NCBI RefSeq assembly: GCF_011064845.1
Contig: NZ_CP049015.1
Location: 3,224,001-3,288,000 of the forward strand
DNA: 64,000 nt
Origin: Citrobacter freundii ATCC 8090 = MTCC 1658 = NBRC 12681
Lineage (GTDB): Bacteria; Pseudomonadota; Gammaproteobacteria; Enterobacterales; Enterobacteriaceae
Direction of reading: 5' to 3'
The translations under genes were made by a program, and so were the position numbers. Of the stretch, positions 16,689-50,055 are shown one piece after another (within the stretch, counting starts at the first letter, position 1; every line of letters starts with the position of its first letter). The notes under the pieces were generated by a model. It saw nothing but the letters and a program-made list of their open reading frames with translations, did no database searches and had not been told where the DNA came from.

Positions 16689-17261
16689 ATGCCAAGAGCG
16701 AACGAAATTAAAAAAGGTATGGTACTGAACTACAACGGCAAACTGCTGATTGTAAAAGATATCGATATTCAATCACCGTCCGCACGTGGTGCAGCTACGC
16801 TGTACAAAATGCGTTTTTCTGATGTGCGTACCGGTCTGAAAGTTGAAGAGCGCTTCAAAGGCGACGATATCGTGGATACCGTCACCCTGAGCCGCCGCGG
16901 GGTTGATTTCTCCTACGTCGATGGCAACGAATATATCTTTATGGATAAAGAAGACTATACCCCGTATACCTTCACCAAAGACCAGATTGAAGAAGAGCTG
17001 CTGTTCATGCCGGAAGGCGGTATGCCGGATATGCAGGTACTGACCTGGGACGGCCAACTGCTGGCGCTTGAACTGCCGCAGACCGTAGACCTGGAAATCG
17101 TTGAAACCTCACCGGGTATTAAAGGTGCTTCAGCGAGTGCGCGCAACAAGCCAGCAACCCTGAGCACCGGTCTGGTGATCCAGGTTCCTGAGTATCTTAG
17201 TGCGGGTGAAAAAATCCGTATTCATATCGAAGAACGTCGCTATATGGGCCGTGCAGATTAA
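16689..17261 (+). CDS. efpL: Elongation factor P-like protein EfpL (YeiP)
   Basis: A 190-residue EF-P paralogue that helps ribosomes through difficult proline-containing motifs. It has the three beta-barrel domains of EF-P. The domain I loop carries Arg33 (SPSARGAAT) where EF-P has the modified Lys34, the mark of the EfpL branch. The ATG at 16689 starts [18 protein letters not shown], matching E. coli YeiP exactly in length; the frame is open further upstream but without homology. A large foldback element begins about 55 bases after the stop. Confidence 0.95.
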
Positions 17262-17316
17262 TCTCCTGTCGTTACAGGTGAACCAAAGATAATGGCATGT
17301 TATCTCTGGCAAAATG

Positions 17317-17902
17317 TTCCGTTCACTTTAGTGGTATCACTTCTCTGAAACCATACTGCCTGTGAACGTGTTAAGGGTACTATCGCCGTACCCTTAACAA
17401 TCCCGGCTCCCGGCGGGAAAATTGCCACTTCGTGGTTCCCTCCGCTTATTCCTCCAGGCTACCGGGCCGGGCGCGAGGTAGCGTCCCTGCAAAACGCGCC
17501 CTGAACCCGCATCCATGCGGGTTCTCCCGGCCTTACGGAAACACGTCGGCAATTTTCAGCCGGACCAGCCCACACCTGACCACCTGCGTTTTTTGTTTAA
17601 ACAGCAAAACAGATTTAACTGGAAGCCAGAGCGTTAAAGCGATGACCCCGGTCCGGCTGAAAAACGATGAGGCGTTGACGGCTGACCGGGGCTGCCCGCA
17701 GGGATGCGGGCAGAGGGGACGGCCTGCAAGGATGCAGGCTCGGCACCGACCCGACAGGCAGACGGCATAAGACGAATAACTCGCGCAGCGATGATTTTCC
17801 CGCCGGGAGCCTGGGATGCAAGGGAGGCGGCGGTGAGCCTCCCTTGCACGTTCACGGGTAACGGCGTTTCAGAGAAATGACTCCACTGAGGTGAACGGAA
17901 CC
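17317..17902. repeat. 586-bp foldback (nested inverted-repeat) non-coding element
   Basis: Two diverged copies of one sequence face each other. Outer arms 17317-17352 and 17867-17902 match at 31 of 36 bases. Inside them GTGAACGTG (17363-17371) pairs with 17848-17856. Each half then has its own perfect hairpin: 17371-17399 (11-bp stem) and 17818-17849 (12-bp stem). Next come 18-base perfect arms at 17406-17423 and 17795-17812, and 14-base perfect arms at 17554-17567 and 17651-17664. Small hairpins with GGAT in the loop lie at 17694-17713 and 17723-17740, with the opposite-strand counterpart at 17504-17525. No coding frame is supportable. It fills most of the 715-bp gap between efpL and torD. 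A non-autonomous mobile element or structured RNA locus are both possible. Confidence 0.85.
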
Positions 17903-17976
17903 CTATGCCGCAATCAAATATTCTCCATAATGCTTTACTGACTGGCATTACAGCGCAGGCTGTCCCTTTGTCATTT

Positions 17977-18609
17977 TCAGCGCTGACTGCTGAAATAAAA
18001 ATCATCCATCAGCAGCGACTCCAGATACTGTTCATCCTCTTGCATAAAACGTACTATCAGATTAACCGCCTGAGGATAAAACCCCTCGTTATCCCGCACC
18101 AGACAAGCGTCGCGAAATAACGGTGCCCAGCACAGAATATGATGATGCAAAAAGTAATACTGCGCGGAGAATTTCTCCTCTTTAGCAACCATCCTCGCCA
18201 TTAATGCCAACTGTACGGCAATATGATCGGAGGGTTCATTCTCCCGAGCCGCCAGCCCTTGCTCAACCAGCAGCACATTCATTTGCAGACGTTCTTCTGC
18301 CGCCGTCGTGTGTGGATAGTGCCCCGCATAGGGAGAAACACTAGCCGGCGGGGCCAGCAGAAACAACGAGGCAAAATCTGCGGCCAACTCAAGCTGTCGG
18401 GAGTCGCGCCGCAGAACCCGGCCCAGGCTACGCTCAAAACGTTTAACATTGGCAGATAATCCGGGGATCGCCTCGAGTGAGGCAATCCATGCCTGGCTAT
18501 TGCCATTTTCCAGACTGGCGAGCTGTTTTTCATCCAGCTCACGAAATAACAGTTGCGAAAACCACTGGTACACAGCCGCCCGCTGCTGATGAATTTGATT
18601 ATGCTGCAC
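17977..18609 (-). CDS. torD: TorD-family molybdoenzyme chaperone
   Basis: Cytoplasmic chaperone that binds the TorA signal and helps molybdenum cofactor insertion before Tat export. The all-helical 210-residue protein shows the family core LELAADFASLFLL near residue 73 and the ENEPSDHIAVQLALM motif near residue 123, equivalent to the EPxDH motif of TorD. Its start overlaps the torA 3' end by 11 bases, indicating coupling. Last gene of torCAD. Confidence 0.92.
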   Translation of the reverse strand: MQHNQIHQQRAAVYQWFSQLLFRELDEKQLASLENGNSQAWIASLEAIPGLSANVKRFERSLGRVLRRDSRQLELAADFASLFLLAPPASVSPYAGHYPHTTAAEERLQMNVLLVEQGLAARENEPSDHIAVQLALMARMVAKEEKFSAQYYFLHHHILCWAPLFRDACLVRDNEGFYPQAVNLIVRFMQEDEQYLESLLMDDFYFSSQR

Positions 18610-41482: not shown

Positions 41483-41606
41483 TCGTACTTTTGATTGATG
41501 TACCAGCCGTTTGAGTATAGAATCTCGCCCGCTTTTGCATACGCAAAGCAGATCACTTACCTGTTGCTGGGTCGCCTGTAGCAGGAATTATTAAAGAGAG
41601 ATTTAA

Positions 41607-45247: not shown

Positions 45248-45324
45248 CGGCACGTAGCGCAGCCTGGTAGCGCACCGTCATGGGGTGTCGGGGGTCGGAG
45301 GTTCAAATCCTCTCGTGCCGACCA
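45248..45324 (+). tRNA. proL: tRNA-Pro (anticodon GGG)
   Basis: A 77-nt tRNA with encoded CCA. The acceptor arms CGGCACG and CGTGCCG pair; the TpsiC arm has GGTTCAAATCC; the anticodon GGG is at 45282-45284. It reads CCC/CCU proline codons. Position between yejM and narP matches E. coli proL. It serves as integration target for the island downstream and remains intact. Confidence 0.97.
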
Positions 45325-48943: not shown

Positions 48944-49210
48944 ATGCGTAAAGCCCGTTTTACTGAGCATCAGATTATCGCTGTGATTAAGTCGGTTGAA
49001 ACCGGACGAACTGTTAAAGATGTCTGCCGGGAGGCCGGTATTTCTGAAGCCACCTACTACAACTGGAAGTCCAGATACGGCGGCATGGAGGCTTCTGATA
49101 TTAAAAAGATCAAAGATCTTGAGGACGAGAACCGACGTCTCAAACAGATGTTTGCCGACCTGAGCCTTGAGAACCGGGCGCTGAAAGACGTTATCGAAAA
49201 AAAGCTTTAA
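48944..49210 (+). CDS. IS3-family transposase OrfA
   Basis: An 88-residue DNA-binding protein with a helix-turn-helix (VKDVCREAGISEATYYNWKSR) and a C-terminal leucine-zipper helix (residues 58-88). The slippery heptamer A-AAA-AAG at 49198-49204 lies four codons before the stop and permits a -1 shift into OrfB. GAAGGAG gives a strong ribosome site. Confidence 0.93.
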   Translation: MRKARFTEHQIIAVIKSVETGRTVKDVCREAGISEATYYNWKSRYGGMEASDIKKIKDLEDENRRLKQMFADLSLENRALKDVIEKKL

Positions 49211-50055
49211 AACCAGCCTTTAAGCGTGAGCTGGTCACTCATCTGGTAACGACATTCGGACTCAGTATCCGTCAGGCCTGCCGGAGTCTGAACCTGAGCA
49301 GAACGGTTTACCATTACCGCCCGGATCCCACGCGTGACGAACCCGTTATTGTCGCGTTACAGGCAGTGGCAGAGCGATACCCACGATACGGTTTTCCAAA
49401 ACTTTTCCAGGTGTTGCGGCGGCAGGGACACCCGTGGAATCACAAAAGGATCCATCGTATTTATTGTCTGCTGAAGCTGAATTTTCGCCGAAAGGGCAAA
49501 CAGCGGTTGCCGGTGCGTAATCCTTCGCCACTGGCCACGCCGGAAGCACTGAACCAGAGCTGGTCTGTTGATTTTATGCATGATGCCCTGGTCTGTGGCC
49601 GTCGTTTTCGCACGTTCAATGTCGTTGATGACTTTAACCGTGAGGCGTTGTCGATTGAAATCGATCTGAATCTGCCAGCTCTGCGCGTGGTCCGTGTACT
49701 CGACAGGATTGCGGCAAATCGCGGCTATCCGGTCATGCTACGTATGGATAACGGTCCGGAATTTATCTCACTGGCACTGGCTGAATGGGCAGAGAAACAT
49801 GCAGTAAAACTGGAGTTTATCCAGCCGGGTAAGCCGACGCAGAACGCTTTTATTGAGCGCTTTAACCGAACATACCGTACAGAAATACTCGATTTTTATC
49901 TGTTCAGAACGCTGAATGAAGTGCGGGAAATCACGGAAAGATGGGTGTCAGAATATAACTGTGAACGCCCTCATGAATCACTGAACAATATGACGCCGGA
50001 GGAATATCGGCAACACAATCATTTGGCCGGGATCTCAAAAAATGCATGGAACTAA
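49204..50055 (+). CDS. IS3-family transposase OrfB (catalytic domain)
   Basis: The catalytic half, reached by -1 frameshifting at A-AAA-AAG; the first coordinate is the shift point, not a start codon. About 283 codons, open throughout. The integrase-core DDE residues are visible: Asp in WSVDFMHD, Asp in RMDNGPEF and Glu in NAFIERFNRTYRTEIL. The N-terminal part has the HTH_21 region (YPRYGFPKLFQVLRRQG). Appears intact, so the element may still move. Confidence 0.93.
   Translation, partial: ALKPAFKRELVTHLVTTFGLSIRQACRSLNLSRTVYHYRPDPTRDEPVIVALQAVAERYPRYGFPKLFQVLRRQGHPWNHKRIHRIYCLLKLNFRRKGKQRLPVRNPSPLATPEALNQSWSVDFMHDALVCGRRFRTFNVVDDFNREALSIEIDLNLPALRVVRVLDRIAANRGYPVMLRMDNGPEFISLALAEWAEKHAVKLEFIQPGKPTQNAFIERFNRTYRTEILDFYLFRTLNEVREITERWVSEYNCERPHESLNNMTPEEYRQHNHLAGISKNAWN

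Follow-up and report, generated by a model that had tools for sequence, protein, structure and literature searches.

In the 64,000-nucleotide stretch of the Citrobacter freundii chromosome analysed here (the window), the interval between efpL (yeiP) and the convergent torD is occupied by a long, imperfect palindrome, whose features are collected in Table 1. An earlier note had recognized it as a nested foldback of 586 bp and had suggested a non-autonomous mobile element, a pair of inverted copies, or a structured RNA locus acting as a CsrA sponge.

Anatomy of the foldback between efpL and torD

Aligned with its own reverse complement, the 586-bp body matches from end to end (379 of 589 positions, E 6e-61 with +1/−1 scoring), and most of the anatomy described earlier is accurate to the base: the 18-base arms (17405–17422 and 17794–17811), the 14-base arms (17553–17566 and 17650–17663) and both perfect hairpin stems (17370–17380 with 17388–17398, and 17817–17828 with 17837–17848) are exact, and the GGA-loop hairpins that it had reported were located as hairpins 1 and 2 of the right module. 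The outer arms do form an inverted repeat, with 30 matches in 36 ungapped positions instead of the 31 in 36 claimed, and the limits 17317–17902 proved too narrow for the element, its homology to other copies running from about 17280 to 17950. The GGA hairpins of one half lie on the minus strand, so that each half reads outward from the centre. The two stems whose differing sequences and common pairing had been pointed out (GTTAAGGGTAC and TGCAAGGGAGGC) are separate from the CsrA-like hairpins.

Open reading frames over the body reach at most 123 amino acids, the five largest match no Pfam family at E values up to 1, and the element has no transposase gene of its own, as is proper to a MITE. 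The right repeat of the window copy runs up to 17950, with half of a terminator directly after it; the left repeat and the other terminator half have been lost, so this copy is probably unable to move. Elsewhere in the window lie an Rfam isrN small RNA (49209–49351, minus strand, 150.9 bits), a tRNA (45248–45321, plus strand) and an L25 leader (41560–41585, plus strand).

Table 1. Features of the efpL–torD region in window coordinates.
Feature	Positions	Strand	Basis
efpL/yeiP	16689–17261	+	start inferred from length of C. freundii homologue
Element as it stands, IS4-type MITE, left end truncated, right end intact	17280–17950		homology to other copies, their ends and target duplications, empty site; left limit approximate
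Left outer arm remnant (type B end), inverted repeat lost	17280–17316		left-end alignment; best repeat-like stretch has 7/17 mismatches
Foldback body of the earlier note	17317–17902		self-alignment, arm check
Perfect hairpin beyond left module; stem varies among copies, pairing kept	17369–17399	−	sequence check
Left RNA module, outward, TwoAYGGAY-like	17409–17572	−	RF01731 match, R1 match, covariation in its family
ANGGA-loop hairpin 2, left module (loop within 17481–17490)	17469–17501	−	fold, sequence check
ANGGA-loop hairpin 1, left module	17503–17524	−	fold, sequence check
Centre between modules, 71 bp, not conserved between genera	17573–17643		comparison of centres
Right RNA module, outward	17644–17807	+	R1 match, fold, pair counts
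ANGGA-loop hairpin 1, right module	17692–17713	+	fold, sequence check
ANGGA-loop hairpin 2, right module	17721–17739	+	fold, sequence check
Perfect hairpin beyond right module	17817–17848	+	sequence check
Right inverted repeat, IS4 type, 3/17 mismatches to consensus	17934–17950	−	end scan; compared with K-12 IS4
Surviving half of target terminator	17951–17970		empty-site comparison
torD, convergent neighbour	17977–18609	−	ORF list and homologue

IS4-type ends, dispersal and landing sites

When the flanks of the copies were aligned, the copies extended past the limits first given, and many terminated in TAATGCCgtTCAGTTAA-like repeats. These are the ends of IS4 of E. coli K-12, whose repeats are TAATGCCGATCAGTTAA and TAATGCCAGTCAGTTAA and which is flanked by a 12-bp duplication; the family thus has IS4-like inverted repeats at its termini, of which the window copy keeps only the right one. 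Repeat pairs were found at 37 of the 74 loci scanned, some of the 37 being one site in two genomes, and 16 of the 37 are bordered by clean target duplications of 10–14 bp (at least 10 bp, at most one mismatch), against 1 of 2399 in a shifted control. Two of these 16 sites (L120 and L122) belong to other genera; they were included since an inspection of 26 loci had already revealed their ends. Measured between the repeats, 33 of 39 copies are 501–802 bp long.

Matches to the element occur in 15 of the 17 same-genus genomes (none in G013 and G014) and in 1 of 23 other relatives, and when named genomes were scanned for an exact 32-base pattern, 40 stretches came up, all from Citrobacter and Trabulsiella. 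In E. coli, 5375 of 5426 genomes contain matches, at a median of 4 places, none of which covers 80% of the query. The possibility raised earlier that the sequence is only a unique local inverted duplication is ruled out, since it is multicopy. The inverted repeats, target duplications, empty sites and dispersal all favour the mobile-element reading, and the suggested pair of inverted copies is likewise sound, two facing, diverged copies making up the element; judged from sequence, the two readings hold jointly, as a non-autonomous IS4-type element of two facing diverged copies. Mobility is well supported by the IS4-type repeats, the 10–14-bp duplications and the dispersal, and the element is almost certainly a MITE, presumably moved by an IS4-group transposase. 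Genome G004 carries an intact transposase of this type (39% to InsG) between matching ends with a 12-bp duplication; a search of the 17 genus genomes with InsG turned up similar genes in only 2.

C4-type RNA matches lie near two copies, at 2252–2436 of L010 and 1255–1345 of L008, with C4 above threshold in L010 and isrK and c4-a1b1 below threshold in L010 and L008. C4-type RNAs are linked to phage immunity regions. A phage origin of the element was dropped, no match being found among phages at the sensitivity used.

Between efpL/yeiP and torD, 12 of the 17 genus genomes have an empty site, a gap of 40–42 bp with a bidirectional terminator, and the other 5 carry the element or a remnant. The copy of G010 at this site lies in the orientation opposite to that of the window, as does the copy in a C. 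freundii record. Three genomes (L081, L083 and L084) have shorter hybrids here, and the L081 hybrid resembles the left (type B) end at both of its ends, as would result from recombination between the inverted arms.

Of 37 sites, 13 passed a rule for terminator-like targets and 24 failed it; among the 16 clean sites 10 passed, and among 1622 random places 20. This rule replaced a first automated one, which had given 6 of 39 sites, because the stems ran into A/T tracts; the control was redone under the new rule, and a lower length limit (1400 in place of 1500) took the sites from 39 to 37. This comparison shows that the element often lands in terminator-like sites and has a preference for predicted terminators.

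Paired putative RNA modules and their relatives

Read outward, each half forms a closed structure of about 164 nt with two ANGGA-loop hairpins. Once arm units covering less than 80% of the query had been dropped, ANGGA was present in loop 1 of 109 of 112 units and in loop 2 of all 112, with G (136), T (66), A (18) or C (1) as the variable base. On the outward strand GGA is enriched over shuffled sequence in the left arms (6.6 against 4.1) and not in the right arms (4.7 against 4.7). For the alignments A1 and A2, units containing N, cut by contig ends or covering less than 85% of the core were removed, which left 107 (102 distinct), A1 including one E. coli and one Klebsiella unit. Pairing is kept in 98.6% of cells across 62 left arms, and double-sided changes occur at 19 of 49 pairs, a count that none of 500 shuffles reached (mean 6.5; the shuffles ignore sequence relatedness), and structures slid along the alignment pair at only 31–48%. 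The 40 right arms, which are less variable, pair at 99.0% and show double-sided changes at 2 pairs, as many as were reached by 90 of 500 shuffles.

A covariance model built from the left arms (R1) scores 206 bits on the left module of the window, whose sequence was among those building it, and 114.4 bits (E 2.6e-23) on the right half. It gives 55 matches over 38 sources, matches E. coli and Klebsiella sequences, both of which were in its building alignment, and picks out 36 of 149 family genomes when at most 19 candidates per genome are scored under stricter filters. Modules are paired outward at 16 of 26 loci (L112–L137), and L124 in G044 holds three such pairs in tandem, about 640 bp apart. 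At yegH–asmA (L031 and L033) a related foldback survives in part: one half is left in E. coli 17MR471 and some of the other half in MG1655, which looks as though the two lineages had lost different arms by deletion. In alignment A3, which spans genera and was fitted to the model, double-sided changes are seen at 48 of 49 pairs. RNA structure is thus strongly supported, as far as alignments can tell, for the left arm and the wider family; the selection on structure proposed by the earlier note, and the covariation by which it was to be checked, stand for these (the left-arm stems covarying strongly) and are weak for the right arm.

The closest known RNA is TwoAYGGAY (Rfam RF01731), which likewise has two GGA-loop hairpins inside a closing stem. 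Its model aligns over its full length (1–168 of 168) with the left half of the window element (17409–17569, E 2.7e-4), at 37.6 bits against a gathering threshold of 43 bits, and has no match in the right half up to E 10. At E 0.05 it found only L024 (38.0 bits) of 15 loci tried, and in whole-genome searches at E 0.001 it had matches in 4 of 17 genus genomes and 0 of 14 control genomes, the cut-off being exceeded in one genus genome, by the G015 copy (45.4 bits). R1 in turn finds none of six TwoAYGGAY loci from other orders (L099, L102, L104, L106, L108 and L110) at E values up to 1. The other-order loci that were inspected have a similar layout; in L099, L102, L104 and L110 a perfect hairpin follows that differs between loci, as in the window element, and after this hairpin CGCCGACAGGGCGAAA is common to L099 and L110. 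According to the available parts of the two papers, TwoAYGGAY was discovered in a screen of bacterial RNAs (PMC2864571) and was proposed to bind CsrA because it contains two matches to the CsrA motif (PMC4333381); these parts report no mobility.

A proposed CsrA-binding MITE and its alternatives

Our preferred explanation is that the element is an IS4-type MITE with a divergent pair of TwoAYGGAY-like RNA modules, which would act through read-through as CsrA decoys or tags; to this explanation as a whole we assign a probability of about 0.5. In the predicted mechanism, insertion in a terminator would break that terminator, so that neighbouring transcripts would run into the element, and because the halves face apart, a transcript arriving from either side would end in one sense module, whose paired ANGGA hairpins may then bind CsrA, either as a decoy or as a tag on the transcript. 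For CsrA as the ligand of the module, by analogy, we see the chances as even: ANGGA or GGA stands in the hairpin loops, as in CsrA sponges, and csrA is present in all six genus genomes tried of the 17. We infer this part from the ANGGA loops and from the sub-threshold match to TwoAYGGAY, a family predicted by others to bind CsrA. Read-through as the route of expression is a tentative and somewhat unlikely component. In full-length RNA the long foldback is predicted to be favoured over the local folds by about 70 kcal/mol (−337.3 against −266.9 kcal/mol) and would mask the sense module. The model therefore works only if the RNA folds during transcription, is processed, or starts inside the element. 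Further points against the explanation are the weak right-arm covariation, the lack of a conserved promoter, the sub-threshold or missing TwoAYGGAY matches, the failure of R1 to find the other-order loci, the unenriched GGA of the right arms, the sites that fail the terminator rule and the rarity of InsG-like genes.

It is doubtful that a transposase-dependent element multiplies CsrA-binding modules through enterobacterial genomes as mobile regulator decoys, transcribed by the host via terminators and in sense either way. If this were true, the CsrA system would be tuned by the many copies that a genome carries, or single mRNAs would be tied to it. Should CsrA bind, the free level of a global regulator would be set in part by transposon copy number, and genes adjoining insertions would become linked to CsrA.

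The modules may also act as RNA without CsrA, as mRNA 3′-end stabilisers, RNase III sites or ligands of another RNA-binding protein. Crude ORF calling, by which 64 of 95 loci given were classified, placed 34 copies between tandem, 23 between convergent and only 7 between divergent genes; copies thus tend to gene 3′ ends, as such a role would have it, with some sites counted repeatedly in overlapping fetched sets (without L142–L181 the figures are 25, 16 and 6 of 47). The long foldback would, moreover, be a double-stranded RNA substrate, and double-stranded RNA is linked to RNase III. However, this explanation, which we regard as unlikely, leaves unaccounted for the conserved ANGGA loops in both hairpins of both arms, as well as the cross-genus conservation of GGA, found in 52 and 48 of 55 loops (A(N)GGA in 46 and 41).

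The pairing might instead have been maintained without any RNA role, in a plain IS4-type MITE whose arms are kept matched at the DNA level by quasi-palindrome correction through template switching. Short perfect stems, the usual substrate of such correction, are present in the element, and the weak right-arm covariation is in agreement with it. So is the lack of a conserved promoter: the centres of 19 pairs range from 21 to 334 bp and differ in sequence between genera, so that no shared promoter is evident, and a promoter scan gave 1 site against 0.5 expected. (The same scan and comparison leave unsupported another candidate, twin small RNAs from a conserved promoter in a shared centre.) Correction of this kind is, however, at odds with the long-range closing helices, whose partners, up to about 155 nt apart, pair at 98–99% with double changes, and with the retention of ANGGA in the loops while its N varies. 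The mismatches are also stranded. The ratio of G-U to A-C cells is 27:6 and 21:7 on the outward strand, where alone G-U is clearly in excess, against 15:13 and 9:7 on the antisense strand (counted by position, 16:6 and 11:7 against 7:10 and 6:7), and the outward strand folds better than the antisense one (−66.1 against −48.5, and −62.1 against −57.2). Furthermore, the palindrome between the arms is not kept, left and right arms being on average 66.7% identical (37 pairs) with internal pairing of 98.6% and 99.0%; selection, if it is the cause of the kept pairing, would act on each half and not on the long palindrome. We hold a plain MITE to be distinctly unlikely, and the module to have been very probably selected as RNA. 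It is highly improbable that the palindrome works at the DNA level, on behalf of the transposase or host nucleoid factors, say by forming a cruciform. Such a role would fit a body that is an imperfect inverted repeat over almost its entire length, and the recurrence of outward pairs (16 of 26 loci); against it stand the divergence between arms that each preserve their own fold and the strand specificity of the mismatch bias.

The putative CsrA-binding MITE is worth comparing with known systems, of which MITEs, IS4 and TwoAYGGAY are each already familiar; in the open-access main texts searched, no description was found of a MITE with TwoAYGGAY-like RNAs or of the divergent-pair layout. With IS4 (insG) of K-12, compared chiefly at the ends, the element shares near-identical terminal repeats and a 12-bp target duplication, whereas it has no transposase gene and its cargo is a non-coding palindrome. 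Dispersed intergenic repeats that fold are also represented in E. coli by ERIC, BoxC and PU-BIME, families that are much shorter as given in the available part of PMC2267715; the E. coli copies of the present family may correspond to the RSA repeats of older lists. The PATEs of Haloquadratum similarly bear palindromes and have no transposase; being described in the part of PMC3119063 available as IS605-related and devoid of terminal inverted repeats and target duplications, they are ruled out as the identity of the present family, which has both. CsrB, CsrC, RsmY and RsmZ carry, like the element, paired hairpins with GGA loops (motif in the available text of PMC4383904), whereas the element has two ANGGA hairpins per strand and is dispersed in many copies, and an Rfam scan over it gave no match to these four families. 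Finally, the module resembles TwoAYGGAY in its closing stem and two GGA-loop hairpins, the left half aligning over model positions 1–168, and differs in that the window copy is sub-threshold and the modules form a divergent pair carried on a MITE. A motif like that of an orphan RNA family is hereby joined to a defined mobile element, which suggests a reason for its multicopy scatter.
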